NCBI RefSeq assembly: GCF_039535785.1
Contig: NZ_BAAAXV010000009.1
Span: 2,170,001 to 2,234,000, forward strand
DNA from: Nonomuraea helvata
Lineage (GTDB): Bacteria; Actinomycetota; Actinomycetes; Streptosporangiales; Streptosporangiaceae
DNA length: 64,000 nucleotides
Direction: 5' to 3'
The first letter of the stretch is position 1. Every line of letters starts with the position of its first letter. The position numbers and the translations under genes are program-made. Below are positions 7,605-25,312 of this stretch, piece by piece. The notes beneath the pieces were generated by a model. That model ran no database searches and had not been told where the DNA came from. It was given only the letters and a program-made list of their open reading frames with translations.

Positions 7605-7621
7605 AAGTGATTAGATCACTT
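7605..7621. promoter_or_regulatory. operator-like palindrome in front of gntR operon
   Basis: AAGTGA-TTAGA-TCACTT is a perfect 6-bp inverted repeat with a 5-bp centre, a typical GntR-dimer site. It ends 3 bp before the regulator's ATG and lies between divergent genes. A near-identical sequence (15 of 17 positions) stands at 21398-21414 before the facing operon, which supports a real operator. Confidence 0.7.
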
Positions 7622-7624
7622 GAT

Positions 7625-8320
7625 ATGTCCGAGGTAACGCGGCCGACGCTGTCCGACGCTCTGACCGAGCGCATGCTGGAGCTCATCCGTACGGGCGGGC
7701 ACCGGCCGGGCGACAGGCTGCCCTCGACCAGGGAGCTCTCCCAGCGCTTCGCCGTCACCACTCCGACGCTACGCGAAGCGCTACGCAGACTCGAGGCCAC
7801 CGGGGCCATCGAGATGCGGCACGGCTCCGGCATCTACGTCGGAGCCGATATCGAGCGGGTCGTCCTGCCCAACCCCAACGTGCGCGAGCTGCACGCCGCC
7901 CGGCTCCTTGAGCTGCTCGGCGCGCGCATCCTGATCGAGCCGCCGCTGGCCGCGATGGCCGCCCAGCACGCGGACCCCGACGAGCTGGCCCCGCTCAAGC
8001 GGGTGCTCGACGAGGCGGGCAGGCACCTGCGCGGCGACGACGCACTGCTGCACGAGGCCAACATGTCCTTCCACCGGGCGACGGCCCGGCTGGCGGGCAA
8101 CAGCGTGCTGCACGAGGTCGTCGACTCGCTGCTCACCATCCACGGACCCGAGCAGCGGGAGATCCTGCAGATCTTCGATGACCGGCGCCGCGACTACGAG
8201 GAGCACCTGGCGATCCTGGAGGCCATCGAAGCACGCGACACCGCGCAGGCCGAGGAGCGCATGCGTGTCCACCTGGTGGACGTGAAGACCGTAATAGAGC
8301 ACAGGTTGCAATCCCCCTGA
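7625..8320 (+). CDS. GntR/FadR-family transcriptional regulator
   Basis: This 231-residue protein has an N-terminal winged helix-turn-helix (residues about 8-75: GDRLPSTRELSQRFAV, then TLREALRRLEATGAIEMRHGSGIYV) followed by an all-helical FCD-type ligand domain (about 90-225; EANMSFHRATARLAGN and HLAILEAIEARD carry the expected acidic and His residues). FCD regulators usually bind small organic or sugar acids. The ATG at 7625 is preferred to a GTG at 7607 because the latter lies inside the palindrome. It is the first gene of an operon with a sugar importer and hydrolases, and is the likely repressor of that operon and of the facing one. Confidence 0.9.
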   Translation: MSEVTRPTLSDALTERMLELIRTGGHRPGDRLPSTRELSQRFAVTTPTLREALRRLEATGAIEMRHGSGIYVGADIERVVLPNPNVRELHAARLLELLGARILIEPPLAAMAAQHADPDELAPLKRVLDEAGRHLRGDDALLHEANMSFHRATARLAGNSVLHEVVDSLLTIHGPEQREILQIFDDRRRDYEEHLAILEAIEARDTAQAEERMRVHLVDVKTVIEHRLQSP

Positions 8321-8341: not shown

Positions 8342-9589
8342 ATGTTCCGGTCACGTGTGGTCACGCTCGGCGTGGCGGCGCTTGTCCTCACCGCCTGCGG
8401 CGGAAACGGCGCGCAGCCGCAGAAGAAGACCGAGCTGACCCTGTACAACGACAAGGGCGCCTGGACGAAGTACTTCGACGAGATGGGCGCCCTGTCCAAG
8501 CAGAGCATCGGCCTGGGCATGAAGCCGACGGGATACACGGACTCGGCGCAGTACCAGGCGTTCATCAAGGCGTCGTTCCGTACCAATGTCAAGCCTGACC
8601 TGTTCACCTGGCAGACCGGGGGGATGCTCGAGGAGATCGTCAAGCAGAAGCAGGTGGCCGACACGACGGACATCTGGCAGCAGGCGATCCAGGCGGGCGA
8701 CCTGTCGAAGGACCTCGCGCCGTACTACACGATCGGCGGCAGGCAGTACTGCGTGCCGATGAACGTCGCGTACTGGGGCATGTTCTACAACAAGAAGATC
8801 TTCGGCAAGTACGGCCTCGAGGCCCCGAAGACGTGGGACGACCTGATCAAGGTGGCCGACACGCTGAAGAAGAACGGCGTCAAGGCCTTCTACCACACGA
8901 GCGTGCTCTTCTCCTTCGTCTGGTTCGAGCAGCTCATGGCCGGCACCGACCCCGACCTGTACGACCGCCTGGCCACCGGCAAGGCGAAGTACACCGACCC
9001 GGGCGTGGTCCAGGTGATGGAGAAGTGGAAGTCCCTCATTGACGCCGGATATTTCATCAATCCGGGGGACAAGACGGACCCTGGTGACGTGCTGAAGAAC
9101 GGCAAGGCCGCGATGGTCTCCTTCGGCACCTGGTTCAACACCAGCATGACCCAGCGGAACATGAAGTCCGGCGAGGACTACGACTTCTTCGTCATCCCCA
9201 ACGTCAATCCCGCGCTGCCCAAGACCTCGATGATCTTCGAGAGCGGCCCGCTCTGCTCGCTGACCAAGGCGGCCGACCCCGCGGCCAACCAGAAGTACCT
9301 GAAGTGGTGGACCACGTCCGAGGCCCAGGGGAAGTGGGCGTCCAGCAGGGGCGACGTGAGCGCCAACCCCAAGGTGAGCATCGCGGACAAGGCGCTCGGC
9401 ACCGTCACGAAGGACGCGGGCGGCGGCCAGTACCGCCTGGTCAACAGGTACTTCGAGGCCACGCCGCCGCCGGTGCTGACGGCCGCGCTGGACGGGTTCA
9501 GCAAGTTCGTGACGGAGCCGGGGAGCTACAAGGAGGTCCTGGAGACCATCCAGAAGGCCGCTGATGAGTACTGGAGTGCGCATCAGTGA
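8342..9589 (+). CDS. sugar ABC transporter substrate-binding lipoprotein
   Basis: This 415-residue protein has a lipoprotein signal ending LTAC with Cys19 as the lipidated residue. The mature part is a typical family-1 extracellular solute-binding protein: LTLYNDKGAW, WGMFYNKKIFGKYG, then PKTWDDLIKVADTLKKNG. It would be tethered outside the membrane and deliver an oligosaccharide or glycoside to the two permeases that follow. A strong aaggagg site precedes ATG 8342, 21 bp after gntR. No ATPase gene lies in the operon, so a shared MsiK-type ATPase from elsewhere is probably used, as is usual in actinomycetes. Confidence 0.95.
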   Translation: MFRSRVVTLGVAALVLTACGGNGAQPQKKTELTLYNDKGAWTKYFDEMGALSKQSIGLGMKPTGYTDSAQYQAFIKASFRTNVKPDLFTWQTGGMLEEIVKQKQVADTTDIWQQAIQAGDLSKDLAPYYTIGGRQYCVPMNVAYWGMFYNKKIFGKYGLEAPKTWDDLIKVADTLKKNGVKAFYHTSVLFSFVWFEQLMAGTDPDLYDRLATGKAKYTDPGVVQVMEKWKSLIDAGYFINPGDKTDPGDVLKNGKAAMVSFGTWFNTSMTQRNMKSGEDYDFFVIPNVNPALPKTSMIFESGPLCSLTKAADPAANQKYLKWWTTSEAQGKWASSRGDVSANPKVSIADKALGTVTKDAGGGQYRLVNRYFEATPPPVLTAALDGFSKFVTEPGSYKEVLETIQKAADEYWSAHQ

Positions 9590-10458
9590 GCGGAGCCAGG
9601 CGTCGAATCGGCCCTCGGGGTGAGGTGCTGCTCGGCCGGTTCGGTCACGGGTACGTGGCGCCCGCGGTGCTCCTGGTCGCGGGCCTGCTCTACGCGCCGT
9701 TCCTGTGGACGGCCTACCTCAGCTTCACCCGGTACGACGGCCTCGAGCCCGCCCAGTGGATCGGCGGGCACAACTTCGGCAAGCTGATCGAGGACCCGGC
9801 CCTGCTCACCTCGATCCGCAACACGCTGCTGTGGGTCGTCGGCACCATGGTGCTGCCCGTCGGGCTCGGCCTGCTGGTGGCGGTGCTGTCGTACGACATC
9901 AAGGGCGGCGTGTGGTTCCGGGTGCCGTTCCTGCTGCCGTACGCGCTGAGCGGCGCCGGCCTGGCCATGGTGTGGAGCCCGATCCTGTCGCACGGCGGCA
10001 TCGCCAACACGCTGCTCGGCGTGGACACCGCGTTCCTGCAGGACGCGCCGGTCAACACGGTCGCGATGCTGCTGGTCTGGACGTGGCAGCAGCTCGGCGT
10101 CAACATGCTGCTGTTCGTGGTGGGGCTGCAGTCCATCCCGAGGGAGCCGATCGAGGCGGCCCGGCTGGACGGGGCCGGGGGCTGGCAGCTGTTCCGGCTC
10201 GTCATCTGGCCGCTCATGAGGCCGCTGACGGCGGTCGTGGTCGGGCTCGCGCTGGTGGCCAGCCTGAAGACGTTCGACATCGTGTGGGTGCTGACTCAGG
10301 GCGGCCCTGGGCGCAACTCCGAGACGCTGGCGGTGACCATGTACAAGGAGACGTTCGTGGCCAGCGACTACGGCTACGGCTCGGCCGTGGCGGTGATGCT
10401 GACCGTCGTCACCGGGCTGGCGTCCTACCTCTACCTCAAGCGGCAGGTGGCCTCGTGA
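9586..10458 (+). CDS. sugar ABC transporter permease (MalF-like)
   Basis: This 290-residue inner-membrane protein has six membrane helices and the permease EAA loop EAARLDGAGGWQLFRLVIWP near residues 190-209, which contacts the ATPase. The GTG start at 9586 overlaps the stop of the binding protein (GTGA), giving translational coupling. It pairs with the following permease to form the translocation channel. The second residue onward (SGARRRIGPRGE) is basic and cytosolic. Confidence 0.95.
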   Translation: MSGARRRIGPRGEVLLGRFGHGYVAPAVLLVAGLLYAPFLWTAYLSFTRYDGLEPAQWIGGHNFGKLIEDPALLTSIRNTLLWVVGTMVLPVGLGLLVAVLSYDIKGGVWFRVPFLLPYALSGAGLAMVWSPILSHGGIANTLLGVDTAFLQDAPVNTVAMLLVWTWQQLGVNMLLFVVGLQSIPREPIEAARLDGAGGWQLFRLVIWPLMRPLTAVVVGLALVASLKTFDIVWVLTQGGPGRNSETLAVTMYKETFVASDYGYGSAVAVMLTVVTGLASYLYLKRQVAS

Positions 10459-11264
10459 TCCGGCGTGCCGTACTCGTCGTGCTCGGGCTGGTCTGGCTCG
10501 GGCCGACGTACCTGCTGCTCGTGAACGCCGCGCGCCCGGCCGGCTCGTACGATCCGGGCCGCGCGTGGGTGCCCTCACCCGACTTCGCGCTGTTCGAGAA
10601 CTTCGGGCGGGCCCTGGAGAGCGCCAACCTCACGCAGAGCCTGGCCAGCACCGCGCTGTACGCCGTCGTCTCGCCCCTGCTCGGAGTGATCATCGGTGCG
10701 CTGGCCGGGTACACCATCGTGGTGCTCCGGCTCCGCTACGGCTTCTTCTGGTTCATCCTGATCTTCGGCGGCACGGTCTTCCCCTCGCAGATGCTGCTCG
10801 TGCCGCTGTTCGTCGGCTACAGCGACGCCGGCCTGTACGACAGCCGCCTCGGCATGATCCTCATCTACACGGCGATCAGCGTGCCGCTGGCCGCGTTCGT
10901 GCTGCGCAACTTCTACACCGGCGTAGCCTTCTCGATCTTCGAGGCGGCCAGGATGGACGGCGCCTCCACCTGGCGCATCTTCTGGGGTATCTATCTGCCG
11001 ATCTCGCTCAGCGCGCTGACGGCGGTGTTCATCCTGGAGTTCACCTTCGTCTGGAACGACCTCATCTTCGGCCTGACCCTGACCCAGACCGAGGACGTGC
11101 GGCCGGTGATGACGGCCATCGCCGGCCTGATGACCGACGTGTACGCGGGCACGCCCGTCCCCGTCGGCCTGGCCGCGGGGCTCGTGGTCTCGCTGCCGAC
11201 CGTCGTGCTGTTCCTCGCCACCCAGCGCCTCTTCGCCAGGGGCCTGTCTCTAGGGAGTGTTTGA
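10455..11264 (+). CDS. sugar ABC transporter permease (MalG-like)
   Basis: This 269-residue inner-membrane partner of the preceding permease also has the EAA loop (EAARMDGASTWRIFWGIYLP). The GTG at 10455 overlaps the upstream stop. The frame is open far upstream inside malF-like DNA, but starts there would duplicate coding sequence, so the coupled GTG is chosen. Helices span nearly the whole length, and TFVWNDLIFG follows the EAA loop as in MalG-type proteins. Confidence 0.95.
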   Translation: MIRRAVLVVLGLVWLGPTYLLLVNAARPAGSYDPGRAWVPSPDFALFENFGRALESANLTQSLASTALYAVVSPLLGVIIGALAGYTIVVLRLRYGFFWFILIFGGTVFPSQMLLVPLFVGYSDAGLYDSRLGMILIYTAISVPLAAFVLRNFYTGVAFSIFEAARMDGASTWRIFWGIYLPISLSALTAVFILEFTFVWNDLIFGLTLTQTEDVRPVMTAIAGLMTDVYAGTPVPVGLAAGLVVSLPTVVLFLATQRLFARGLSLGSV

Positions 11265-14200
11265 TGACGAGCCGGTTGCTCCAGCGGAGCCTGGGCAGTC
11301 CCGACTACGACGGGATCAGGCAGGCGCTGCGCGACGACACCTCGACACCGGTGATCAGCGTGCGCGGGCTGGAGGTGCGGGTCTCGGTGCTGCCGCTGTT
11401 CACCCACGACGGCCGCCAGGCGGTCAGGGTGTCGAGCACCGAGCCGCTGACCCACGTGCTGGTGGGCGTGGACAGCGCGTCGGGCAGCGACGTGACGCTG
11501 CTGGTGCCCGAGGTGCAGGCGCCGCGCGTGCTCACGCTGGAGTGCCGCGACGACGCCGGGGTGGTCGGCAGCGCGCAGGTCACGGTGACCCCGCAGCGCA
11601 AGTGGAGCGTCTTCGTCGTGCACCACTCGCACCTGGACATCGGCTACACCGATCCGCAGGGCACCGTGCTCCGCCACCACCTGGACTACCTCGACGCGGC
11701 GCTGCGGCTGGCCGAGGAGACCGAGTCCTGGCCGGACGACGCGAAGTTCCGCTGGACGGTCGAGTCGTCGATGCCCGCGCTGAAGTGGCTCGACGCGCGG
11801 CCCGCCGACATGGTGGAGTCCTTCGCGCAGAAGGCCCGCGAGGGCGTGATCGAGGTGACCGCGCTGCCGTTCCAGCTCCACACGGAGGCGTGCTCGACCG
11901 AGGAGCTGTACCGCCAGCTCCGCTTCACCGGGCAGCTCAAGGAGCGGTACGGCTTCGCCACGAAGTCGGCCATGCACACCGACGTGCCCGGCGCGGTCGT
12001 CGGCCTGGTGGACGCGCTCAACGCGGCCGGCGTCCGCTACCTGGCCGCGGCCCACAACTGGGCCGGGCGGTCGGTGCCCTACCTGCACGGCGGCGACAAG
12101 CTGACCAGGCCGTTCCGGTGGCGGGCGCCGAGCGGGAACGAGGTCATCGTCTGGTTCACCGACACGCCGCACGGCATGGCGTACATGGAGGGCAACACGG
12201 TCGGCCTGACCGACTCCTACGAGCTGGCCGACGACCTGCTGCCGCGGTACCTGTCCGCGCTGGCCACGCGGGGGTACCCGTACGGGCCCGGGACGTTCGG
12301 CTGGCAGGGGCCCGACGCGCCTAAGGAGCCGTACGAGCTGGACGTGCTGCACCTGCGGGTACAGGGGGCGCACGCGGACAACGCGGGCCCCTCGATCGTG
12401 CCCGCCACGATCGCGCGCCGGTGGAACGAGAAGTGGGCCTACCCGCGCCTGCGCTCAGCCGTCAACAGCGACTTCTTCGAGCACGTCGAGGAGCGCTACC
12501 ACGACCGGCTGGCCGTGCACGAGGGTGACTGGACCGACTGGTGGGCCGACGGGCTCGGCTCGGGCGCGCGCCCGCTCGGCTACGTGCGCAGGGCGCAGTC
12601 CGCGCTGCGCGTGGCCGAGACCCTGCACACGATCGCGGGCGTGGACGCCACCGAGAAGATCGACGCGGCCTACGACAAGGTCGCCCTGTTCAACGAGCAC
12701 ACCTGGGGTGCGGCCAACCCGTGGGAGGACGCCGAGGAGGCGGGCGACTCGGGCGGCCTGCAGTGGACGCGCAAGTCGTCCGGCGCCTACGACGCCCAGG
12801 ACGACGCCGCCGACCTGCTGCACGCCGCGACCCGCAGGTTCGCCGCCGCGCTCTCCGAGGCGGGCACCGAGGGCGGGGCGCTGGCCTCGTTCGCCGTCTT
12901 CAACCCGGGCACGTGGGCGCGGACCGACGTCGTCCGCGCGTTCCTGCCGAGAGACGTGGTGGGCATCGACGTGCCGATCGCGCTGGTGGACGCGCGGACC
13001 GGGGAGACGCTCGCGCACCACGAGGAGTTCGTGCACCCGGAGGACTGGCCGACCCGGCCGATCGGGCGGCACGTGCAGGCGGTCGTCCCCGACGTTCCCG
13101 GCTTCGGCTACGCGCGCGTCGACGTCGTGCCGGGGGAGACCCAGGCCCCCGAGCCGGTCGAGCTGGACCTCAGCGGGGCGATCGAGAACGAGTTCTACCG
13201 CGTGGCCTACGACGTGCGCGAGGGCTACATCAGCTCGATCTTCGACAAGCGGGCCGGCCGCGAGCTGGTCAACGGCGACGCGGCGGCCGGCTTCGGCCAG
13301 TACGTCTACGACCAGTACGCCACCGCCCCGCATTTCAACCATTTGTCGGGACACGTTGGGGCGCACGACCGTACGCTCCTGGGCGACCGGGCCATCGGCA
13401 AGGGCGCCACCATCACCAAGGCCCAGCGCACGGCCGTCGGCGAGAAGCTGGTCGTGGAGCTGCACGGCAAGGGCGTCGACTGGATCCGCACGACGATCGA
13501 GCTGCACAGGGGCGTGCCCCGGCTGGACCTGACCTACCAGCTCGCCAAGCAGGGCACCCCGGCCAAGGAGGCCGTCTTCCTGGCCTTCCCGTTCGCGGCC
13601 GGCCCGCCCAGCGTCTGGGAGCTGACCGGCGGCGTCGGCGGCCCAGCTGTGCCCCGTGTGCCGGGCTCGGCCGAGTACATGCTGCCGATCAGGCACTGGA
13701 TCGCGTTCGAGGACCCCGAACTGACCGTGGCCTGGGCCACGCTGGAGGCGCCGCTCGTGCAGCTCGGCACCATCCACATGCCGTACGCGCCTTTCCCGCC
13801 CACGCTCGACCAGGAGGACGGCACGGTCTACTCCTGGGCGCTCAACAACATCTGGGACACCAATTTCCCGGCCCAGCAGCAGGGCGAGACCACCTTCCGC
13901 TACGCGGTCACCTCGACTCCCAATGTCGCCGGGTCCGCGACGGTTGTGGGGGCTCAGGGTCGCCGACTCGGCGCGGCGGCCGCCTCGGGGCTGACCGAGC
14001 CGTTCGTCGGCGCGCTGATCACCGACAGCCCCGACGTCACCGAGACGTACGCGTCGGTCGACCACCCCGACGTGCTGATCACGTCGATCGGGCGGTCGGG
14101 GGACGAGCGCGTGGTGCGACTGCAGTCGCTCGCGTCCGAGCCGGTCGAGGTGTCGGTCCGCCTGCCGGGGCTGCGCGCGGCCCGCGGGCTCGACGTGGTG

Positions 14201-14266
14201 GATGAGACGGTCAAGGTACGGCTGCCCGCCTGCGGGGTGGCCGCTGTTTGGGGGACGTGTTCGTGA
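11264..14266 (+). CDS. GH38-family alpha-mannosidase-like glycoside hydrolase
   Basis: This protein has exactly 1000 residues. The GH38 catalytic domain (about 115-400) opens with [12 protein letters not shown] (residues 120 onward), the zinc-binding His/Asp motif of the family, and has AMHTDVPG with Asp240 as candidate nucleophile. A three-helix region follows near 400-540, and the beta-sandwich C-terminal domains fill the rest ([12 protein letters not shown], then LDLTYQL). There is no signal peptide, so it would act in the cytosol on sugars delivered by the importer. ATG 11264 shares a base with the permease stop. [10 protein letters not shown] differs from classical lysosomal-type GH38 (HNDPGW), so it belongs to a distant subgroup and activity on alpha-mannosides is not certain. 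Confidence 0.85.
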
Positions 14267-15495
14267 AGATCGTCGACATCAGGGCCACAACGGTCGCGGT
14301 CCCGCTGGAGGCGCCGCTGCGGCACAGCAACGGCGCGCACTGGGGCAGGTTCGTCCGCACGATCGTCGAGGTCGAGGCCGACAACGGGCTGGTCGGCCTG
14401 GGCGAGATGGGCGGCGGAGGGGAGAGCGCGGAAGCAGCGTTCCGCGCGCTGATGCCGTACCTGAAGGGCCATGACCCCTTCCAGCTCGAGGCGCTGCGCT
14501 TCAAGATCGCCAACCCGACGGCCTCGCTCTACAACAACAGGACGCAGCTTCTCGCGGCCATCGAGTTCGCCTGCATCGACCTCATCGGGCAGCACCTGGG
14601 CGTGCCCGCGCACGACCTGCTCGGCGGGCGGATCCGCGATGCCGTGCCGTTCGCCTCGTACCTGTTCTTCCGGTACGCGGCCGAGGGCCACGGCGAGATC
14701 CGCACGCCCGAGCAGCTCGTCGAGCACACCAGGCATCTCAAGAAGGCGCACGGGTTCGCCGTTCACAAGCTCAAGGGCGGCGTGTTCCCGCCGGACTACG
14801 AGCTGGAGTGCTACCGGGCGCTGGCCGAGGCGTTCCCTGACGACCGGCTCAGGTACGACCCGAACGCCGTGCTCTCGGTGGCCGAGGGGCTGCGCTTCGG
14901 CCGGGCCATCGAGGGGCTGAACAACGACTACCTGGAGGACCCGGTCTGGGGCCTGGAAGGGCTCAGGACCATCCGCGAGCAGGTCAGGGTGCCCCTGGCG
15001 ACGAACACCGTCGTGGTCAACTTCGAGCAGCTCGCCTCGAACGTCATGCGCAGGGCCGCCGACGTGGTGCTGCTCGACACGACGTTCTGGGGCGGCATCA
15101 GGCCGTGCGTGAAGGCGGCGGGCGTGTGCGAGACGTTCCAGCTCGGGGTGGCCGTGCACTCGTCAGGGGAGCTGGGCATCCAGCTGGCGACCATGCTGCA
15201 CCTCGGCGCGGTGCTGCCGAACCTCACCTACGCCGCCGACGCGCACTACCACCAGCTCACGGACGACGTGATCGAGGGCGGGAAGATGGCGTACTCGGAG
15301 GGCGCCATCGCCGTCCCGCCGGGGCCCGGGCTGGGGGTGCGGCTGGACCCGGAGAAGGTCGCCCGCTACGCCGAGTACTACCGGGAGACGGGCGGCTATC
15401 CGTACGACCGCGACCCCGGGCGGCCCGGCTGGTACGCCACCGTGCCGAACGAGCGTTTCGCGGATCCGTCCGTTTCCATCGATGTAGCTCCATAA
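14263..15495 (+). CDS. enolase-superfamily sugar-acid dehydratase (glucarate dehydratase-like)
   Basis: This 410-residue protein has the N-terminal capping domain and TIM-barrel of the mandelate racemase/glucarate dehydratase group. Visible active-site elements are the KxK base motif in VHKLKGG (Lys169, Lys171), the metal ligand in RYDPNAVL (Asp199), LEDPVWG (Glu225) and the general-acid His299 in VHSSGELG. It would dehydrate an aldonate or aldarate to a 2-keto-3-deoxy product. GTG 14263 overlaps the hydrolase stop (GTGA) and has an upstream gggga; a TTG at 14248 is possible. It follows the glycosidase directly, so it probably processes an acid derived from the released sugar. Confidence 0.88.
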
Positions 15496-15504
15496 TTGGG
15501 CGAT

Positions 15505-16941
15505 ATGTCTGAAGCTACCCAGCCGGCGCCCCCGGCCGACAACCTTGTCACCACGTCGCACGCCCTGCCGTCGGGGCAGGCGTACACCGCCACCACCGGC
15601 ACCATGGTGCTGCGCGAGGAGGTGATCGACGACGGCAAGTTCGAGGGACTGCGGCCGAAGGCCGAGATGTTCGTCACCTCGTACACGCTCGACGGGGCCG
15701 ACCCGCTGAGCCGGCCGGTCACGTTCGCGTTCAACGGCGGCCCCGGCTCCTCGAGCGTCTGGCTGCACCTGGGCGTGCTCGGGCCGCGCCGGGTCGTGAT
15801 GGGGGACGCGGGAGCGCTCCTGCCTCCTCCGTACGGCCTGGCCGACAACGAGGAGAGCCTGCTGGCCGTGAGCGACCTGGTCTTCATCGACCCGGTCTCG
15901 ACCGGCTACTCGCGGGCCGCCGAGGGTGAGAAGGCGGAGCCGTACCACGGCTTCACCGGCGACATCGAGTCGGTCGGCGAGATCATCCGGTTGTGGACCA
16001 CCAGGAACGGGCGGTGGATGTCGCCGAAGTTCCTGGCGGGGGAGTCGTACGGGACGATCAGGGCGGCCGCGCTGGCCGATCACCTGCAGTCGCGGTACGG
16101 CATGTACCTCAACGGCGTGATGCTGATCTCCTCGGTGCTCGACTTCATCACCGGGGATTTCAACCAGGGCAACGACCTGGGCTACGCCCTCTATTTGCCG
16201 ACTTATGCCGCTATTGCGCACTATCACGGGCTGCATGGGGACCGGCCGCTGGCCGACGTGCTCCGCGAGGCCGAGGCGTTCGCCGAGCGCGACTACCCGT
16301 GGGCGCTGGCGCGCGGCAACCGCCTCAGCGCCGAGGAGCGCTCGGCCGCCGTCTCCACGGTCGCCGCGCTGACGGGACTGAGCGAGGACTACGTCGACCG
16401 CGTGGACCTGCGGATCGAGCACATCCGGTTCTTCACCGAGGTGCTGCGCTCGCGCCGTCAGGTCGTCGGGCGGCTCGACGGGCGGTTCCTCGGCTGGGAC
16501 CCCGACTCGGGGCGCGAGCACTTCTCGGCCGACCCGAGCATGAACGCGATCATGGGCCCCTACAGCGCCGCGCTCAACCACTACCTCCGTACCGAGCTGG
16601 GCTACGCCAACGACCTGCCGTACGAGGTGCTCACCTCGCGGGTGCATCCGTGGTCGTACAAGGAGTTCGAGGGCGTGCACGTCCAGGTGGTCGACAAGCT
16701 GGGCGCGGCCATGCGGGCCAACCCCCACCTGCGTGTCCATGTGGCCTGCGGCTACCACGACGGCGCGACGCCGTACTACGCCGCCGAGCACGCCTTCGCC
16801 CACCTGCCCGTGCCCGCGGAGCTGGCCGCGAACGTGGAGTTCAGGTACTACGAGGCAGGCCACATGATGTACGTCCACGAGCCGAGCAGGCTGCGCCAGT
16901 CAGCGGACCTGACCGCGTTCGTGCTCGGCCAGCAGGCCTGA
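15505..16941 (+). CDS. S10 serine carboxypeptidase-like protein
   Basis: This 478-residue protein carries the S10 signatures NGGPGSSS (about residue 77, oxyanion region), GESYGT with nucleophile Ser181, a late Asp in CGYHDGATPYY and His in EAGHMMY. There is no signal peptide, unusual for a classical secreted S10 peptidase but common in actinobacterial members of unknown substrate. ATG 15505 lies 9 bp after the enolase stop, so it belongs to the same operon. Its presence suggests the imported compound carries a peptide or acyl part. The end overlaps a convergent lipoprotein gene by 42 bp. Confidence 0.9.
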   Translation: MSEATQPAPPADNLVTTSHALPSGQAYTATTGTMVLREEVIDDGKFEGLRPKAEMFVTSYTLDGADPLSRPVTFAFNGGPGSSSVWLHLGVLGPRRVVMGDAGALLPPPYGLADNEESLLAVSDLVFIDPVSTGYSRAAEGEKAEPYHGFTGDIESVGEIIRLWTTRNGRWMSPKFLAGESYGTIRAAALADHLQSRYGMYLNGVMLISSVLDFITGDFNQGNDLGYALYLPTYAAIAHYHGLHGDRPLADVLREAEAFAERDYPWALARGNRLSAEERSAAVSTVAALTGLSEDYVDRVDLRIEHIRFFTEVLRSRRQVVGRLDGRFLGWDPDSGREHFSADPSMNAIMGPYSAALNHYLRTELGYANDLPYEVLTSRVHPWSYKEFEGVHVQVVDKLGAAMRANPHLRVHVACGYHDGATPYYAAEHAFAHLPVPAELAANVEFRYYEAGHMMYVHEPSRLRQSADLTAFVLGQQA

Positions 16942-17799
16942 CGCGCGGGCCAGGCGCTGTTTGAGGTTGGCGCGGAGCTCGGCGAAGCGCTCGGGGTTGT
17001 CCCGGATGAGCGTCCGCTGGAGCTCCGCGTCGGCCGCGAACCAGGCGGCGATCAGGCCCGACGACCACTTACAGGTCGTGTCCGCGTACGCGACCTGCTT
17101 CTCCTCCTCGCTGATGGCCGGCTTGTCCAGTTTCCAGCGGCCGTCGGCGATGGCGGCCTCCGGAGCCGGGTACGGATGGCCCGCCTGGCTCATGCACGAC
17201 TGCCAGCGTTTCGCCGCCGCCGTCACGGACGGGTCCTTGGCGGCCTGCTCCAGCGTGAGCGAGTCCTGCAGGGTCAGCCACGGCCAGTCCGCCTTCTGGG
17301 CGCCCTTGCCGAGCGTCTGCGTGGCCCGGTCCAGGCAGCCGCGGTCGACGGCGTTGCCGTACAGGCGGTGCCGGGTCGGCTTGGAGAGCTTGCCCGTCCA
17401 GGCGCCCGTGGTGTCGGGAGAGGGCAGGCGGGCCAGGTGGTAGCCGAAGTTCTTGGTCGCCACGGTGTCCGCGACGCCGTAGCGGCGGGAGTTGCCGGGG
17501 TCCACCGCGGCGATGGTGACGGGATCCTCATCGGGGAGGTCGATGACGGTCCCCTTCTTGCGCATGCAGCGTTCGACGAGCTGGTTGTGGGCGTTGCCCA
17601 GGATGGCCCGCTGCTCGGGAGTGGACTTGTAGGCGTCGAACGGCAGCACCAGTTCTGACACCGAGGAGACGCCCTTCTTGGGCGCCCGTGACGCGGGCTC
17701 GTCGGCGGCGCAGGCGGCGACAGAGATCAGCAGCAGCGTGCCCGCGAGGACTCCGCGGCAGCCGGCCTCCGGCGGCCAGGCCCGGCTGTTCAGCGACAC
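16900..17799 (-). CDS. unknown lipoprotein
   Basis: This is a protein of about 299 residues. GTG 17799 gives a signal ending ISVAAC with Cys30 as lipidation site. The mature domain has Cys pairs (VERCMRKKG, RGCLDRATQ, WQSCMSQAGHPYP, DTTCKWSSG), so it is probably disulfide-stabilised outside the cell. Similar Cys-spaced lipoproteins occur in actinomycetes without known function. The start overlaps the stop of the upstream inhibitor gene by 10 bp, so the two are co-transcribed and coupled. It probably does not belong to the sugar regulon. The exact start is uncertain, because this frame stays open into the upstream gene. Confidence 0.7.
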   Translation of the reverse strand: MSLNSRAWPPEAGCRGVLAGTLLLISVAACAADEPASRAPKKGVSSVSELVLPFDAYKSTPEQRAILGNAHNQLVERCMRKKGTVIDLPDEDPVTIAAVDPGNSRRYGVADTVATKNFGYHLARLPSPDTTGAWTGKLSKPTRHRLYGNAVDRGCLDRATQTLGKGAQKADWPWLTLQDSLTLEQAAKDPSVTAAAKRWQSCMSQAGHPYPAPEAAIADGRWKLDKPAISEEEKQVAYADTTCKWSSGLIAAWFAADAELQRTLIRDNPERFAELRANLKQRLARASGLLAEHERGQVR

Positions 17800-18245
17800 C
17801 AGATATCGAGCGCGCTGGCGCGGTTGTTGGAGACGGCGTTGTTGACCAGGAAGCCGTCGTTCGAGTCGTGCGTGAACGTGCTGTGCGCGCCGGTGTACCC
17901 CGGGTGCTGCCAGAGAGTGGCGCTGCAGCCGATGCGGTTCCTGATGGAGCTGGTCTCGTTGTTCATGCTGTGCCAGGAGTTGGTGAAGTCCCAGTTCAGC
18001 CAGTTGTTGTCGGCGAAGTCGGCGTCGTCCTGGATGAAGTCGCGCCACAGGTCGGCGTGGCCGCGGTTGAAGTCGAAGCCGGCGTACAGGCAGACGCGGC
18101 CGCCGTAACACGTCGAGCGGGGGCTCGCCGCCGTGCTCGCCACCGTGCTCGCCACCGTGCTCGCCACCGCGGCGCCCGCGGGGGCGAGCGCGGTGAGCAT
18201 CGCGGCCGCGGTGACGAGGCCGGCCGCCTTTCTGGATAGCCTCAC
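17790..18245 (-). CDS. secreted peptidase-inhibitor I36-like protein
   Basis: This 151-residue protein has a Sec signal peptide (residues 1-27) followed by a short VAST repeat linker, then a small beta-rich domain (GGRVCLYAGFDFNRGHADLW, then CSATLWQHPGYTG) with conserved Cys. This matches the I36/SMPI-type metalloproteinase-inhibitor family with a gamma-crystallin-like fold. It would be exported and might inhibit metalloproteases or simply be a structural extracellular protein. A gagag site precedes ATG 18245. It starts a two-gene operon with the overlapping lipoprotein gene. Confidence 0.8.
   Translation of the reverse strand: MRLSRKAAGLVTAAAMLTALAPAGAAVASTVASTVASTAASPRSTCYGGRVCLYAGFDFNRGHADLWRDFIQDDADFADNNWLNWDFTNSWHSMNNETSSIRNRIGCSATLWQHPGYTGAHSTFTHDSNDGFLVNNAVSNNRASALDIWCR
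18133..18168. repeat. 12-bp tandem repeat x3 in the I36-like gene
   Basis: GTGCTCGCCACC is repeated three times without interruption. On the minus strand this encodes VAST repeated in the linker after the signal peptide. Because the unit is four codons, copy-number change would lengthen or shorten the linker without breaking the frame. Confidence 0.85.
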
Positions 18246-18411
18246 AGGTCTCTCCTCGATCAGTGGGTCGTTTCGAGGGGCCGTGCAGGGGCTGCTCGCC
18301 CGGCACGCCGAGCACCACTGGTATCAGCGGTACGACCTGCGAGATCGCCGCGTTGGCGCAACTCTTGCCGGCTTGCTGCGTGACCTTGGTGATCCGTGGG
18401 CTGTCCGTGGG

Positions 18412-19182
18412 CTATTCGGGGAGGGCGGCCGGGTTCTGCGCGAGCAGGCCGCCGTCCACGCGGTGCTCGGCGCCCGTGATGAACGACGAGCGCGGCCCCG
18501 CCAGGAACGCCACCAGCTCGGCCACCTCCTCGGGCCGGCCCACGCGGCCCAGCGGGTGGGAGCGGCCCCACTGCTGGATCTGCTCCTCCTGCGACAGCTC
18601 GCCCCGCCACAGGTCCGCCGCCCAGCGCAGCATCGGGGTGTCCACCGAGCCCGGGCAGACCACGTTCACGCGGATGCCGTCGGCGGCGTGGTCGAGCGCC
18701 ATGGCCCTGGTCAGGCCGTTGAGCGCGGCCTTGCTCGCCGTGTAGGCGGCCACCTGCGCCTGCGAGGAGAACGCCTGCACCGACGACATGATCACGATCG
18801 AGCCGCCGCCCCTGGCCCTCAGCTTGGGGACGGCCGCCTTGCAGGTGAGGTAGACGCCCTTGAGGTTGATGTCGAGCACCTCGTCCCAGACGTCCTCAGG
18901 GGTGTCCTCGACCGTGCCGTAACGCTGCACGCCCGCGCAGGTGACCACGATGTCGAGCCCGCCGTACTTCGCCACCGCCAGGTCCACCAGGCCGCTCATC
19001 TCGTCGGCCCTGCGCACGTCGGCGACCACACCGGTGACGCTCTCGCTGTTAAGCGCCGCGTCCTTGTCGACCCCGCAGAACACCACGGACGCCCCGCCGT
19101 CGGCCAGCCGGTCGACGACCGCCCGCCCGATGCCCATCGAACCGCCCGTGACGAGCGCGACCTTCCCACTGAACTCACTCAT
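18412..19182 (-). CDS. short-chain dehydrogenase/reductase
   Basis: This 256-residue classical SDR has the nucleotide-binding motif TGGSMGIG near residue 13, an NAG-equivalent TCAGV, catalytic Ser in IVIMSSVQ, and YTASK (Tyr/Lys), ending with the typical GAEHRVDGG. It uses NAD(P) to oxidise or reduce an alcohol, probably a sugar or sugar acid given the neighbours. The ATG at 19182 overlaps the stop of the mutarotase-like gene (ATGA), so it is the third gene of the minus-strand operon whose promoter region carries the 21398-21414 operator. The much longer open frame upstream is antisense to real coding and is not used. Confidence 0.92.
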
Positions 19183-20192
19183 GCCAGCACCTCCGCGCGC
19201 AAGCGCAACACCTTCGTCTCGTGGGGGTCCAGGGTCAGGGCCGTGCCGTTGGCCACGGCGGCGGCCAGGCCGTCGGTCGGCATGCTGGAGAACGGCTCGA
19301 GACCCACCGTGTACGCCCGTCCCCACCAGGGATAATCGGTGGACGCGCCGAGCTCCTGCCACATCCACAGGTACGGCAGGAGAGACGCCTCCCATTCCAC
19401 TCGGATACCGATATCCCCTGAAATTTCGTACCAACCCTCGTCGAAGCCGGTCAGGTAGACGATGTCGCTCGGCGCTCCCGGCTCCTGGACCACGCTCAGA
19501 TCGGTCTCCCCGCCCTGATCGGCGGGCACCCGCGGCCAGTCCCAGGGGCCGCCTGCTTTCACCCGGCGGCCCTTCGCCGGATTTATCGCGCTTTCGTGGG
19601 GGATGACCTTGACGCCGTCCGGCAGCCGGATCCTGGCTCCGGGGCGGAGGAACGGCAGGCCGTACACGATGTGCTGCCCCCACATGGCGTGCAGGGGGAT
19701 GTCGGCCTCGTTGGTCGCCCGGCCCTCGATCTCGAGCGCCGCCGTCCCCGACCTCAGCCTGAAGACCTTCTCCATCCGGCACGGCAGCCGCCGCGTGCGC
19801 ACGCTGAGCCGTACCGCGACCTCCTCCTCGGAGTCGGCCACGACCTCAGACCGCCACGGCAGCCCGGAGACCTCCCCATGCTGCGCCAGCCGGGCGCCGC
19901 GGTACTCGCTCGGCGCGCCGCCGCTGGGGAAGATCTCCTGCCAGCCGCCCTCGTAGTGGTCGACGAACTGGGCGACGTCGTCGGCCGCGCCCTGGAGGTG
20001 GTCGTGCGGGTTGCGCAGGCCCTGCGGGGAGAGCCAGACGAAGTCCTTGTCGGTGGGCTTGTGCAGGAACTCCACCACGTCGCCGCCCTTGTCGGGCACG
20101 ACGGTCACGCGCAGCCGCTCGTTCTCCAGCACGACCGCCCGCAGCCCGTCGAACGTGACGTGCCGCAGGCGGGCCGCCCAGTTACGCCTCAC
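19179..20192 (-). CDS. aldose-epimerase/galactose-mutarotase-like protein
   Basis: This 337-residue cytosolic beta-sandwich protein has features of the aldose-1-epimerase superfamily: an N-terminal [20 protein letters not shown], a mid His in [17 protein letters not shown], and a late acidic pair near the Trp-rich YLWMWQELG. Bacterial DUF4432-like members look similar. It may interconvert anomers of, or bind, the sugar released by the glycosidase. It overlaps both its neighbours by 4 bp, so the three genes form one operon. The exact family is uncertain. Confidence 0.75.
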
Positions 20193-21364
20193 TGGAAGGT
20201 CACATCCAGGAATCTCGGCCGGTAGATGGTCACGTCCCGGTAGTGGTCGGTGTTCACGAAGCTGTTGACGTTGTAGGAGATGACGAGCCCGTTGCCGGCC
20301 ACCTCGGGGTGGGCGTGGGCGTTGTACGTGAAGATGTTCCCGCTGGTCTCGGGGGTCGTGTAGACGTGCTGCTTGGCGGTGAACGGGCCTGCAGGGGAGC
20401 AGGAGGTGTAGGCCACGATGTTCGGGCTGAGCACCTCGGTCGTGTCATGGGTGATCAGGACATATCCCGATCCGACCTTGGTGATGCTGTACTCGTTCGC
20501 CACCCCGCTCATGATCCGCGCCGAGTCGGCCTCGCTCTTCGACCAGGTGCCGTCGGACTTGAGGAACTCCCACGCGCCCAGCAGGCTCTGCCCCTTGACC
20601 CTGGCGACGTGCATGTACTTGGGCGAGCCGAGGTCCTCGACGCCGTACACGTAGGTGTATCCGCCGTCCTTGAGGATCGCGGAGGCCCACGAGATGCCGT
20701 GCGCGGACGGCAGGTCGGTCACGCTGACCGGCTCGTTCAGCCGGCCGGGGGCGAACCTCGCCACCACGTTCCGGTGCCAGCGCCAGTCCCAGGCGCCGGT
20801 GCCGTACCGCTCGTACTCCTGGTAGGTGACCTCCACGAGCCCGCCGGCCACCGTCGCGTCACCGGCCCAGAACCAGTGGTTCTGGTCGCGCGGGGGCATC
20901 ACGGCGGTCGGCTGCTGCGTGGTGCCGTCGTGGATCGTGGAGAGCCTGCCGTCGCGCTCGACGGCGAAGGAGTTGTTGAGGAAGACCGTGTCGCCGCCCT
21001 CACCGACCACGGGCGGCCGCGTGCCGCCGGGGTTGACCCGGCCGAGGAACGTGTCCGAGAAGATCCACAGTTCCTTGCCGTTGGGCAGCTTGACCGAGTA
21101 GGTGCCGTCGGCGCCCGTCCAGTCGTCCAGCCGGCTGTTGTCGTTGCCGTAGTTGGTGAAGAGGCTGGTGAGCCGGGCGTCGGTCGTGGTTCCCTTGACC
21201 GTCGGGACGGTACAGGCGGCGGTCGGCGTGGCCTGCTGCTGCTGTTGCTGGGCCACCGACGGGACGGGCTTGGGCGGGGCTGCCCACGCTTGCTGCGGCG
21301 CGGCGGTCAGGCCGGCCAACGCGATGGCCAGGGGTGCTAAGGCGGAGCGGAATCGCGTCATCAC
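20189..21364 (-). CDS. secreted beta-propeller-like protein (DUF5005/DUF4185-like)
   Basis: This 391-residue protein begins with a Sec signal peptide (about residues 1-28, cleavage after AWA) and a QQQQQQ-containing linker. The rest shows repeated blade-like segments: LDDWTGADGTYSV, LWIFSDTFLGRVN, HWFWAGDATV, GISWASAILKDGGYTYVYG, then VISYNVNSF. This resembles the five-bladed propeller glycoside-hydrolase-like families of unknown activity. It would act outside the cell, perhaps trimming the glycan before import. It is first in the operon under the operator at 21398-21414, and its stop overlaps the mutarotase-like start. Confidence 0.8.
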   Translation of the reverse strand: MMTRFRSALAPLAIALAGLTAAPQQAWAAPPKPVPSVAQQQQQQATPTAACTVPTVKGTTTDARLTSLFTNYGNDNSRLDDWTGADGTYSVKLPNGKELWIFSDTFLGRVNPGGTRPPVVGEGGDTVFLNNSFAVERDGRLSTIHDGTTQQPTAVMPPRDQNHWFWAGDATVAGGLVEVTYQEYERYGTGAWDWRWHRNVVARFAPGRLNEPVSVTDLPSAHGISWASAILKDGGYTYVYGVEDLGSPKYMHVARVKGQSLLGAWEFLKSDGTWSKSEADSARIMSGVANEYSITKVGSGYVLITHDTTEVLSPNIVAYTSCSPAGPFTAKQHVYTTPETSGNIFTYNAHAHPEVAGNGLVISYNVNSFVNTDHYRDVTIYRPRFLDVTFQ

Positions 21365-21397: not shown

Positions 21398-21414
21398 TAG
21401 TCATTAGATCACTT
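21398..21414. promoter_or_regulatory. second copy of the GntR operator-like site
   Basis: TAGTCATTAGATCACTT matches the site at 7605-7621 in 15 of 17 positions, including the whole ATTAGATCACTT half. It lies 34 bp upstream of the propeller gene start and 103 bp before the divergent Tat-signal gene, well placed to control the minus-strand operon. Sharing of such a motif 13.8 kb apart suggests one regulator for both operons. Confidence 0.65.
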
Positions 21415-21516: not shown

Positions 21517-22464
21517 ATGACGGTCACTCGCCGAGATCTGCTCAAGGTGGGCGCCGGAGTCGCGGCGACGGTTGTGGCGGGCACGGAGACGGCTGCGGCC
21601 GCCTCCGCCGGACGGTTCGACCTGGCCGCGTCCGCAGACCCGTTGATCTGGAAGAAGGCGCTGTACGACGAGACCGTGCTGCAGTCGTTCGCCTTCGACA
21701 ACGTTCACGGGCACATCTACGTGGCCCAGTTGAAGAACGGCTCGGGCTCGGCGGCGGCCGGTGATCTCTGCGTGACCAAGCTGAGCCTGTCCGGGTCGGT
21801 GCTCGGCCACATGTACCTCCTGGGCTTCGGACACGGCGTGCAGATCGGCGTCGAGCCGTCGGGCGGCTCCGCCTACCTGTGGACGGAGACCGACGCGGTG
21901 AGCGACGGCGCGGGGAACGCGTGGGGGAGGCGGCTGGCGAGGTTCAAGTTCGTCAACGGTCAGACGCTCAGGCCGTCGTCCTCGGCGCTCACCAAGTACA
22001 CCTTGATCTCGGGCGCGACCAGCACCACGTGCGCGATCGACCCGTCGACCAACCGGCTGATCATGCGCTGCCGGGTCGGCGACCAGGCGCGGTTCGTGGC
22101 GTACTCGCTGGCGGCGGTCAAGGCGGGGTCGCCCAAGAAGCTGTACGACGTCGCGCAGCCGTCCGGCCTGGGCGTCTTCCAGGGCTACACGGCTTACGGC
22201 GACTACCTCTACCTGCTCGACGGCACGGCCTACGGCGCCTCCAACCCGGCGCCGGGCAACACGTACCTCACCTGCGTCGACCTGCGCACGGGCGCCAAGG
22301 TCCAGCGCTCGCTCAGCCAGGCGGGCAAGTCCCTGGACTACCGCGAGCCGGAGGGCCTGGCCATCCAGATCGCGTCGGGACGGCCCAGGCTGTGCCTCGG
22401 CCTCGCCTCGGGCACCGCTGGGGCGCGCAAGGCCAGCATCTTCTACAAGGACGCCCTCGTCTGA
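21517..22464 (+). CDS. Tat-exported TagC-like protein
   Basis: This 315-residue protein has a twin-arginine signal (TRRDLLKVG, residues 4-12) and AAAASAG before the mature part. It matches actinomycete proteins usually named teichoic acid biosynthesis protein C: LYDETVLQSFAFDNVHGHIYVAQL, then GDLCVTKLSLSG and GFGHGVQIGVEP. The repeating segments suggest a propeller. That name is historical and a teichoic acid role is unproved. A ggaggtcgt site precedes ATG 21517. It is divergent from the operator-controlled operon and could share its control region. Confidence 0.8.
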   Translation: MTVTRRDLLKVGAGVAATVVAGTETAAAASAGRFDLAASADPLIWKKALYDETVLQSFAFDNVHGHIYVAQLKNGSGSAAAGDLCVTKLSLSGSVLGHMYLLGFGHGVQIGVEPSGGSAYLWTETDAVSDGAGNAWGRRLARFKFVNGQTLRPSSSALTKYTLISGATSTTCAIDPSTNRLIMRCRVGDQARFVAYSLAAVKAGSPKKLYDVAQPSGLGVFQGYTAYGDYLYLLDGTAYGASNPAPGNTYLTCVDLRTGAKVQRSLSQAGKSLDYREPEGLAIQIASGRPRLCLGLASGTAGARKASIFYKDALV

Positions 22465-22549
22465 ACCGTCCTCGGCGGAGCAAGTGGTCGAGCGGGGCCT
22501 CGATGGGAAATGCCAATGGCGCAAGAGTGGGCGGACGTAGACTGCCTGT

Positions 22550-22762
22550 ATGAGCGCGATGCGTGAAGAACTTCACTCCCTGGTCGATCAGCTCCCCGAC
22601 GATCGGGTGCAACCGGTGATCGCGCTCGTCCGTGAAAATCTCCTGGCGAGCCGCCGGACGCAGGCAGCCGCGACCCTGGAGATGATCCGTGAGCGGATGC
22701 GCGGTGTGACGGGTGTCGATGAGGAGCTGGACCAGCTTCGAGAAGGCGTGGTGTCCGCCTGA
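22550..22762 (+). CDS. small unknown protein
   Basis: This 70-residue acidic, helical protein has the phrase LHSLVDQLPDDRVQPVIALV, a pattern seen in small proteins of actinomycetes and some antitoxin-like proteins. No partner toxin gene is next to it: the ABC-F gene follows 51 bp later. ATG 22550 or 22559 could be the start. Function is unknown. Confidence 0.6.
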   Translation: MSAMREELHSLVDQLPDDRVQPVIALVRENLLASRRTQAAATLEMIRERMRGVTGVDEELDQLREGVVSA

Positions 22763-22813
22763 GCGACGGAAAATGTGGTGCCCACGCCGGAAGGGGACGG
22801 TTACGCTGCCGGA

Positions 22814-24424: not shown

Positions 24425-24502
24425 AGATCCCGCGTTAAAGAGTTGGTACGCCCGGCGCGTGTCACCCGCCATCCGTGCCCATGCACGGGTTATCACGGCA
24501 AA

Positions 24503-25312
24503 GTGATCCCGCGTAGCCGAACCGCCAGCCTGCTCGCACTCGGGGCACTCGGGGCGATCTGCCTCTCCGGGTGCTCCAGCGAGAAACGACCAGTACAAGA
24601 GCTCAAGCCCCTGGCTCTCAAGGAACAGGTCTCGAATATCGTCAAATCCGCCGACGGGTACGCCGTCACCTGGGCAGGCGTGCTCAGCAACGCCAACCCG
24701 TGGCACTTCGGCGAGCACGTGGTGGCCACGATCGTCGGGCACGACGACAAGGGCGCCGAGGTGGTCAGGATGGACCAGCCGCTCGACGCCGTGCCGCCGG
24801 GCGGGTCCCTGGCCTTCACCGGCCAGGCGACCTCCGTGGAGAAGCCGGCGAAGGTGACGATCCAGTACCGTCCAGCGCGCTGGCGGATGGCGGCGCGCAT
24901 TCCTTCGGCGTTCCAGAGCTTTCCTATTACGCGAAGCCAGACTTTGCGCCAGAAAGATGGCTCATACCTTATTACTGGATATGTCGGAAATCCCTATCAA
25001 ATGCCGGCCAGTAGTCTGGTGGTCAACGCGTTGCTGCGCGACAAAGCGGGCAAACTCCTCGGCGGTGGCAGCACGTTCGTGGATGACGTCAAAGCGGGCA
25101 GCCCGCCGCGATTCATTCTCACCGTTTCCGGGCTGCCCGCGGGGGCCACCGTGGCGAGGACCGACATCACGGCCAGGACCTGGGGATCCACCGGCCGGCC
25201 TTACGAGGATCTGGCGCTCGCCGGCGCCGTGCCGATCCACACGGTGAAGCCCGCCACCGAGCCGTTCGCGGTGGACCGGAGCACCCAGGTCGTTAACGAA
25301 CATAAGCAATAA
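24503..25312 (+). CDS. unknown lipoprotein
   Basis: This 269-residue protein has a lipoprotein signal ending CLSGC with Cys24. The mature region shows two similar beta-sandwich halves, each with a phrase about added or spaced terms (VTWAGVLSNANPWHFGEHVV and LITGYVGNPYQMPASSLVV). Such duplicated FxLYD-type domains occur in cell-surface lipoproteins. The GTG at 24503 is chosen for the short basic start IPRSRTAS. There is no conserved partner nearby, and the function is unknown. Confidence 0.75.
   Translation: MIPRSRTASLLALGALGAICLSGCSSEKRPVQELKPLALKEQVSNIVKSADGYAVTWAGVLSNANPWHFGEHVVATIVGHDDKGAEVVRMDQPLDAVPPGGSLAFTGQATSVEKPAKVTIQYRPARWRMAARIPSAFQSFPITRSQTLRQKDGSYLITGYVGNPYQMPASSLVVNALLRDKAGKLLGGGSTFVDDVKAGSPPRFILTVSGLPAGATVARTDITARTWGSTGRPYEDLALAGAVPIHTVKPATEPFAVDRSTQVVNEHKQ

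Follow-up and report, generated by a model that had tools for sequence, protein, structure and literature searches.

Three described systems lie closest to the locus considered here. In Thermoplasma acidophilum, a proposed non-phosphorylative mannose route employs AldT, ManD and 2-keto-3-deoxy-gluconate (KDG) aldolase, leading from mannose via mannonolactone and mannonate to KDG, and in Thermoplasmatales the gene for AldT, which converts mannose to mannonolactone, has a mannonate dehydratase gene as its neighbour (partial text of PMC6901390). In haloarchaea (Natronoglomus), it has been predicted that mannan oligomers are imported and hydrolysed inside the cell, and that the mannose is oxidised and dehydrated (partial text of PMC10963439). 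Finally, the D-arabinan locus of Microbacterium arabinogalactanolyticum combines secreted GH183 propellers, an ATP-binding cassette (ABC) importer and intracellular exo-enzymes (partial text of PMC10509167). Our locus is an operon for an importer, a GH38-like hydrolase and an acid-sugar dehydratase in Nonomuraea helvata, within a window of 64,000 nucleotides (the whole stretch analysed; contig NZ_BAAAXV010000009.1, positions 2,170,001 to 2,234,000) of an 11.26 Mb genome. It is probably one of two operons that a GntR/FCD-family regulator controls together as a regulon, which would import oligosaccharides, release a manno-configured sugar, oxidise it to an aldonate and dehydrate the aldonate.

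As in the T. acidophilum route, the Nonomuraea gene set unites an acid-sugar dehydratase with a short-chain dehydrogenase/reductase (SDR) of AldT kinship. Unlike that route, it is actinobacterial and adds an importer, a GH38-like hydrolase, a secreted propeller, a DUF4432 protein and a dedicated regulator, and its dehydratase comes from the glucarate-dehydratase side, in contrast to the Thermoplasma ManD, the two being compared by description only. The proposed import, internal hydrolysis, mannose oxidation and dehydration resemble the Natronoglomus prediction, which differs in concerning beta-mannan, GH2, GH5 and GH26 enzymes, ManD genes and an archaeal host. The secreted propeller, importer and intracellular glycosidase are paralleled in the Microbacterium locus; there, according to the partial text, GH172 and GH116 enzymes act with an isomerase and a kinase, none of which was seen in the Nonomuraea module, where GH38-like and oxidative genes stand instead. 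No actinobacterial route of mannose oxidation was found in the open-licence literature, a scope outside which most subscription papers fall. We take the gene content, the overlaps, the conservation, the common operator in Nonomuraea and the predicted folds as established, and infer the enzyme specificities.

The conservation of the gene set was followed in three samples. The best 80 of 244 GH38-profile relatives were fetched and 79 named loci kept, so the counts describe the closest relatives and are also limited by contig ends; the best 26 of the 79 belong to Nonomuraea or to [Actinomadura] parvosata, which we take to be a Nonomuraea. A family sample held 150 genomes, with orthologue cut-offs of at least 65% identity for GH38, 79% for the dehydratase, 66% for the S10 serine-carboxypeptidase-like protein, 60% for DUF4432 and 54% for the propeller, and a genus sample held 54; the SDR was counted in loci at 55% identity or above, and Fisher tests are uncorrected for phylogeny. 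GH38 orthologues occur in 10 of the 150 family genomes and the dehydratase orthologue adjoins GH38 in all ten, which bears out the link between importer, glycosidase and dehydratase drawn by the first-pass annotation of positions 8342-16941. The regulator (7625-8320) and three partner genes (18412-21364) lie outside that segment. Among the 67 loci that carry the dehydratase, the SDR is found in 63, the propeller in 62 and DUF4432 in 59, and S10 in 24. The SDR is missed in L081, L096, L098 and L100, the last three on contigs shorter than 15 kb; DUF4432 in the same four and in L102, L106, L110 and L121; and the propeller in L081, L096, L098, L108 and L116. L081, from Thermoactinospora, has an SDR and a partial DUF4432 gene further along its contig (L138). 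In the family sample, DUF4432 orthologues occur in nine and propeller orthologues in all ten of the GH38-dehydratase genomes, and in none of the other 140. Moreover, in five of the six Micromonosporaceae loci (L108, L111, L113, L116 and L124) DUF4432 and SDR genes come straight after the dehydratase and share its strand. This conservation, the single operons of Micromonosporaceae and the common operator in Nonomuraea tie the three partners to the module, and we are highly confident that SDR, DUF4432 and propeller belong to the gene set and that S10 does not.

The operator pattern has only two matches in the 64 kb at up to three mismatches, compared with 0.41 expected, and two or more were obtained in 5 of 100 shuffles. 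It is present at the regulator gene in 62 of 65 loci (Nonomuraea 38/38, Actinomadura 19/19, others 5/8); for the propeller gene the count is 44 of 63 (Nonomuraea 38/38, Actinomadura 2/18, others 4/7). The 79 loci hold 118 matches, 12 of them elsewhere, and three first-order Markov controls gave 3, 12 and 6. Of the three loci without an operator at the regulator, two (L117 and L124) have a match ahead of a propeller gene that lies upstream of the regulator on the same strand. As judged from these matches, co-regulation of the second gene group with the importer operon is well supported in Nonomuraea, and the two-operon regulon is supported for this genus only, since operator 2 is mostly without a match in Actinomadura.

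In the proposed pathway, a secreted GH183-like propeller enzyme would trim a polysaccharide outside the cell, and the solute-binding protein (SBP) and permease pair, with an ATPase encoded elsewhere, would import the resulting oligosaccharide. A cytoplasmic GH38-like enzyme may then free a manno-configured aldose, most likely D-mannose, whose anomers would be interconverted by the DUF4432 protein. The SDR would oxidise the aldose to the aldono-lactone, hydrolysis of which would give the aldonate (D-mannonate), and the enolase-superfamily dehydratase would convert D-mannonate to KDG, which could enter Entner-Doudoroff-type steps encoded elsewhere. In favour of this pathway, the genome encodes, outside the locus, two members each of the KDPG-aldolase and SMP-30 lactonase families. 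The sugar acid bound in a glycoside that had been suggested earlier becomes unnecessary, because an aldose-dehydrogenase-like SDR in the conserved gene set could form the acid after hydrolysis.

Concerning the individual enzymes, the N and C domains of the GH38-like protein reach 49.4 and 29.4 bits in Pfam, above the cut-off of 25 for each. Its AlphaFold2 (AF2) model (pLDDT 83.7) matches the Streptococcus pyogenes GH38 alpha-mannosidase 2wyi over 755 residues (model 113-1000; VIA Z 27.9, root-mean-square deviation 3.6) and 5kbp at Z 27.1, which predicts a GH38 fold for both the catalytic and the beta-sandwich domain. GH38 enzymes hold a metal site and Asp nucleophile made up of His, Asp, Asp and His; H123, D125 and D240 are invariant in 27/27 sequences, and the fourth metal ligand was not located. 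No signal peptide is evident by eye. The dehydratase comprises the N and C domains of MR_MLE, and its best solved relatives (4it1, 3vdg and 3vc5) are annotated as glucarate dehydratase (putative or probable) or as mandelate racemase-like. Its K169, K171, D199, N201, E225, N248, D272 and H299 are invariant in 68/68 sequences, and the glucarate dehydratase group is marked by Lys-x-Lys, Asp, Glu, Asn, Asp and His. By sequence, it is assigned to this group of the enolase superfamily, although it falls far under every NCBIfam equivalog cut-off, including those for glucarate dehydratase (TIGR03247, 148.3 bits vs 828.7) and ManD D-mannonate dehydratase (NF043051, 82.1 vs 550). The SDR is closest among solved structures to 3vtz (1.3e-68), 2dtd (1.2e-54) and 2zk7 (9.1e-53), followed by 4dqx (4.6e-50). 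The first two are named glucose 1-dehydrogenase (-related), and we take them to be the aldohexose dehydrogenases of Thermoplasma volcanium and T. acidophilum (AldT), respectively. The aldose dehydrogenase model NF005007 is the best of 233 matching NCBIfam models (9.8e-76, 254.3 bits), and in an alignment with the solved relatives P259 is found in 64/64 and Y92 in 63/64 sequences, presumably the C-terminal Pro tail of AldT and its partner Tyr.

Mannose is favoured because of this SDR kinship to AldT and of a swap of routes in Streptomyces and Wenjunlia. In eight of nine loci from these genera (L125-L131 and L133) and in a metagenome-assembled genome (MAG) of Catenulispora (L115), a gene for a protein of some 580 aa comes directly after the GH38 homologue (region of about 13150-16850); the ninth, L132, stops 290 bases after GH38. 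The only solved relatives of the L128 copy are mannose-6-phosphate isomerases (1qwr, 1e-5; 1zx5, 1.5e-4), which its residues 231-537 resemble, the N-terminal stretch of about 230 residues being without assignment, and the other copies are homologues of it at 58-78% identity. In the eight Streptomyces/Wenjunlia loci, genes for a ROK kinase homologue and for a regulator of LacI type come after it. Streptomyces/Wenjunlia and Catenulispora loci thus share with Nonomuraea the SBP-permease-permease-GH38 order (GH38 at 43-55% identity), and the Catenulispora MAG also a propeller homologue (46%), whereas their downstream genes look phosphorylating and no dehydratase, SDR (at least 55%) or DUF4432 orthologue was seen in the fetched loci, the dehydratase being found in 0/9 route-swap loci. 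In addition, a Rubrobacteraceae MAG (L120) carries after GH38 an SDR at 60% identity and an SMP-30-like fragment below the Pfam cut-off, a gene order that appears to favour the aldose-to-lactone step. Upstream of this GH38-SDR pair, at 355-5604 of L120, there are three genes of L-rhamnose type (one rhamnose-isomerase-like, one for a fusion of class II aldolase and SDR, and one for an L-rhamnose mutarotase), together with a sugar-isomerase-like gene.

A number of observations weigh against the proposed regulon and pathway. No lactonase or KDG kinase gene was seen in the two operons. Between the GH38-like protein and characterised GH38 enzymes there is only very distant similarity (phmmer against the PDB gave no match at 0.001, and its profile reached 1.3e-4 at best against solved structures), so alpha-mannosidase activity is uncertain. 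The dehydratase is closer to the glucarate-dehydratase group, whose substrates are aldarates, than to ManD (NCBIfam 2.7e-43 vs 3.5e-23). The SDR remains below the NF005007 equivalog cut-off of 341 bits, and in 64/64 sequences it has Gln where both solved relatives have Glu, which presumably recognises the mannose C2 hydroxyl. The characterised family nearest to the propeller, GH183, acts on D-arabinan and not on mannan. The protein of about 580 aa had no Pfam or NCBIfam match in the two copies tested and its isomerase kinship is weak. Operator 2 is mostly unseen in Actinomadura and found in only part of the other genera, and the Nonomuraea DNA in which it is constant is closely related. Lastly, it speaks against the separation of S10 from the module that in all 32 genus genomes with both GH38 and S10 the latter lies on the GH38 strand, at the distance expected of a gene directly behind the dehydratase.

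In an alternative reading, the GH38-like enzyme would free a manno-type hexuronic acid, from which the SDR would form an aldarate for dehydration by the glucarate-dehydratase-like enzyme. The nearest relatives of the dehydratase, its full catalytic set and the NCBIfam matches of the regulator, which include NanR, Uxu and ExuR models, all below cut-off, are consistent with such a uronate route, as is the fact that FCD regulators often sense sugar acids. On the other hand, the SDR is nearest to glucose/aldohexose-type dehydrogenases and no uronate dehydrogenase is named among its 60 solved relatives or the 25 NCBIfam models listed. Furthermore, in place of the dehydratase the Streptomyces variant has a sugar-kinase homologue along with a mannose-6-phosphate-isomerase-like protein, as would suit a neutral hexose. 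We thus regard the uronate route as unlikely.

The propeller raises a different alternative, namely that it is an endo-D-arabinanase, and the GH38-like protein a new D-arabinosidase or a remover of mannose caps; the sugar oxidised would then be D-arabinose, with D-arabinonate as the product that is dehydrated. The start of the propeller resembles a signal peptide by eye. Its AF2 model (pLDDT 85.1) is closest to 4hbs (BACOVA_04882, VIA Z 34.1) and reaches Z 28.8 over 292 residues to the GH183 enzyme EndoMA1 (8hhv), vs about 19-21 for GH159, GH43, GH117 and others; the many GH43/GH32 chains at Z of about 19 reflect the common five-bladed fold. On this model, the propeller is predicted to be five-bladed and of GH183 type. 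Its DUF4185 (36.3 bits, cut-off 39.5) and DUF5005 (29.3, cut-off 29.6) matches both lie below the Pfam cut-offs, which in the case of DUF4185 speaks against the D-arabinan alternative. Among characterised enzymes GH183 remains the closest, and the invariant D86 and D104 are 18 residues apart, as are the nucleophile D33 and acid/base D51 of EndoMA1, with E291 as a candidate for the third residue, E243 in EndoMA1 (partial text of PMC10509167). An SBP_bac_8 importer is present in the Microbacterium locus as well. However, the intracellular GH172, GH116, isomerase and kinase of the known pathway (partial text of PMC10509167) were not seen among the module genes. The same genome carries, on another contig (C2, 343600-355279), a GH183 (DUF4185) gene above cut-off and two GH172 (DUF2961) genes within 12 kb, likely a D-arabinan locus separate from the module. 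No arabinosidase is known in GH38. Taken together, D-arabinose as the oxidised sugar appears doubtful. An equally doubtful extension of the mannose pathway would have the regulon scavenge mannose-capped or mannosylated D-arabinan from the envelope glycans of other actinobacteria: a divergent GH183 clade would open the polymer outside and a new GH38-like clade would remove mannose inside, the mannose being processed by a DUF4432 mannose mutarotase and, upon oxidation, a hexonate dehydratase of the glucarate-dehydratase group, while the arabinose part would be left to the cluster of GH183 and GH172 genes on the other contig.

The S10 protein had been read as evidence for a peptide or ester part of the substrate and as a member of one coupled operon with GH38 and the dehydratase. 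The physical part of this proposal holds. All five gene junctions from 8342 to 16941 and the coordinates of the genes are present in the sequence: GTGA overlaps join SBP to permease A (9586-9589), permease A to permease B (10455-10458) and GH38 to the dehydratase (14263-14266), TGATG joins permease B to GH38 (11262-11266), and the dehydratase stop (15493-15495) is followed after 9 bp by the ATG of S10 at 15505. In the 32 genus genomes with both, the window's included, GH38 and S10 share a strand and are separated by 1237-1272 bp, a spacing equal to the dehydratase gene length; the exception is G189, with 1556 bp, whose GH38 match falls in two pieces. This constancy argues that the arrangement is no artefact, and since S10 also starts less than 100 bp behind the dehydratase in 24/24 fetched loci with both, co-transcription is likely. 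The operator pattern precedes S10 in 0/24 loci, which is weak evidence alone, as a gene closely behind another is expected to lack an operator of its own.

Co-occurrence across genomes, by contrast, does not support a coupled function. In the genus sample, GH38 is present in 48 and S10 in 35 of the 54 genomes (both 32, GH38 alone 16, S10 alone 3, neither 3), without association (Fisher p 0.65). S10 is missing in 43 of the 67 dehydratase loci: it occurs in 23/38 from Nonomuraea and 1/1 from Thermoactinospora, and in 0/28 others (Actinomadura 0/20, Micromonosporaceae 0/6, Streptosporangium 0/1, a Streptosporangiaceae MAG 0/1), so conserved neighbours do omit the peptidase. In three genomes with no GH38 match genome-wide (G069, G156 and G169), S10 and the lipoprotein-like gene tail-to-tail with it are kept beside the window's chromosomal neighbours; G156 retains the SDR and propeller genes and G169 the propeller gene. 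Conversely, in G155 an incomplete S10 (residues 1-371 of 478) stands next to a whole module. Orthologues in other genera (66-73% identity) adjoin unrelated genes, named here from their sequence starts: glutamine-synthetase-like, aldehyde dehydrogenase and SDR genes of polyamine-type look in L021, L026 and L027, with a class-I amidotransferase-like gene added in the last two, and transketolase and transaldolase genes in L019 and L020. The family sample has S10 orthologues in 17 genomes (two partial), and S10 is over-represented in the GH38-dehydratase genomes (4/10 vs 13/140 others, uncorrected p 0.016), all four of which belong to the window's genus.

As regards the protein itself, the Pfam match (37 bits, cut-off 21.9) covers only residues 69-217 of the 481-aa open reading frame (ORF), no solved relative was found by sequence search at 0.001, the Ser/Asp/His set looks intact and no signal peptide is evident, both by eye, and nothing useful was found in the open-licence literature on bacterial S10 or Nonomuraea GH38. 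S10 looks like a co-located, likely co-transcribed neighbour without a role in the pathway. Proteins of the S10 fold can transfer acyl groups or cleave esters, and this one might be an accessory that is optional, such as a deacylase acting on acyl-decorated oligosaccharides, and that was recruited in the Nonomuraea-Thermoactinospora line alone; its stable position and orientation would suit this, but the lack of association with GH38 in the genus and the homologues without the module elsewhere make it highly unlikely. A glycopeptide or glycoconjugate route, with S10 removing an amino acid or ester group, is scarcely credible despite the short gap, the constant spacing, the apparently intact catalytic set and the over-representation in one genus, in view of its independence from GH38, its absence from most dehydratase loci, its survival without GH38, its incomplete copy beside a whole module and its unrelated neighbours in other genera.

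Two further settings of S10 were observed. In two genomes without GH38, a small lipoprotein-like gene, presumably of DUF305 type from its sequence, directly precedes S10 (L134, 9034-9564; L135, 11869-12399). In L030 and L031, two divergently placed S10 paralogues (34-39% identity to the window's) lie beside genes resembling those for M20-type amidohydrolases and a peptide transporter (names from sequence), a peptidase-like setting for other S10 members.

The features of the locus are collected in Table 1, with domains assigned by Pfam search of the translated window ORFs. Some gene limits called for a choice. The regulator start was taken as the ATG at 7625, the ORF list having GTG at 7607. 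A 1233-aa ORF from 10565 was rejected as the GH38 gene for being too long, and a 456-aa SDR ORF was rejected as a fusion, its first 200 codons or so overlying the DUF4432 gene. In the ORF at 16900-18318, alignments of relatives start anywhere within residues 15-107, and a lipoprotein-like start lies near 17748.

Table 1. Genes and operators of the regulon and the adjoining S10 pair, in window coordinates.
Feature	Position	Strand	Remarks
Operator 1	7605..7621		AAGTGATTAGATCACTT; palindromic; directly ahead of regulator ATG
GntR/FCD-family regulator	7625..8320	+	Pfam FCD 4.8e-24, GntR 1.1e-18; in 65/79 loci
Sugar-binding lipoprotein-like SBP of ABC importer	8342..9589	+	Pfam SBP_bac_8 1.9e-28; in 76/79 loci
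ABC permease A	9586..10458	+	Pfam BPD_transp_1 6.8e-14; in 76/79 loci
ABC permease B	10455..11264	+	Sugar permease models, below cut-off; in 76/79 loci
GH38-like hydrolase, 1000 aa	11264..14266	+	Glyco_hydro_38N 5.3e-13, 38C 1.1e-6
Enolase-superfamily acid-sugar dehydratase, glucarate-dehydratase-like	14263..15495	+	MR_MLE_C 2.6e-52
S10 serine-carboxypeptidase-like protein	15505..16941	+	Peptidase_S10 3.4e-9; judged outside the pathway
Lipoprotein-like gene	16900..17748	-	Start not certain; tail-to-tail with S10 and retained alongside it where the module is lost
SDR, aldose-1-dehydrogenase-like	18412..19182	-	
DUF4432 aldose-epimerase-like protein	19179..20192	-	DUF4432 1.4e-24; 4-bp overlap with each neighbour
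Secreted-looking five-bladed beta-propeller, GH183-related	20189..21364	-	
Operator 2	21398..21414		TAGTCATTAGATCACTT; about 35 bp ahead of propeller gene

Beyond the second operon, a gene with two ABC domains (22775-24424) was considered and rejected as the importer ATPase, on account of its two domains and its persistence in genomes without the module; its identity is 88-95% across those Nonomuraea loci in which it was detected. An antisense ORF of 809 aa over it (22313-24742) is most likely a high-GC artefact. Further on, an IS4-type transposase gene (31301-32686) is flanked by one gene for a Zincin_2 metallopeptidase and one of TilS type.

At first sight the locus is a common kind of sugar operon to which a bystander peptidase is attached, but the gene set behind it is unusual and well conserved, and a 9-bp gap within an operon is no proof of a common pathway. 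If true, the proposed pathway would be a case of operon-encoded mannose oxidation in bacteria, a route that in the literature found is known only from archaea and cell-free work. It would also propose functions for a GH38-like clade, a clade of the glucarate-dehydratase group, DUF4432 and a GH183-like clade. Finally, it would mean that one importer-hydrolase unit may serve two sugar fates, oxidation or phosphorylation, in related bacteria.

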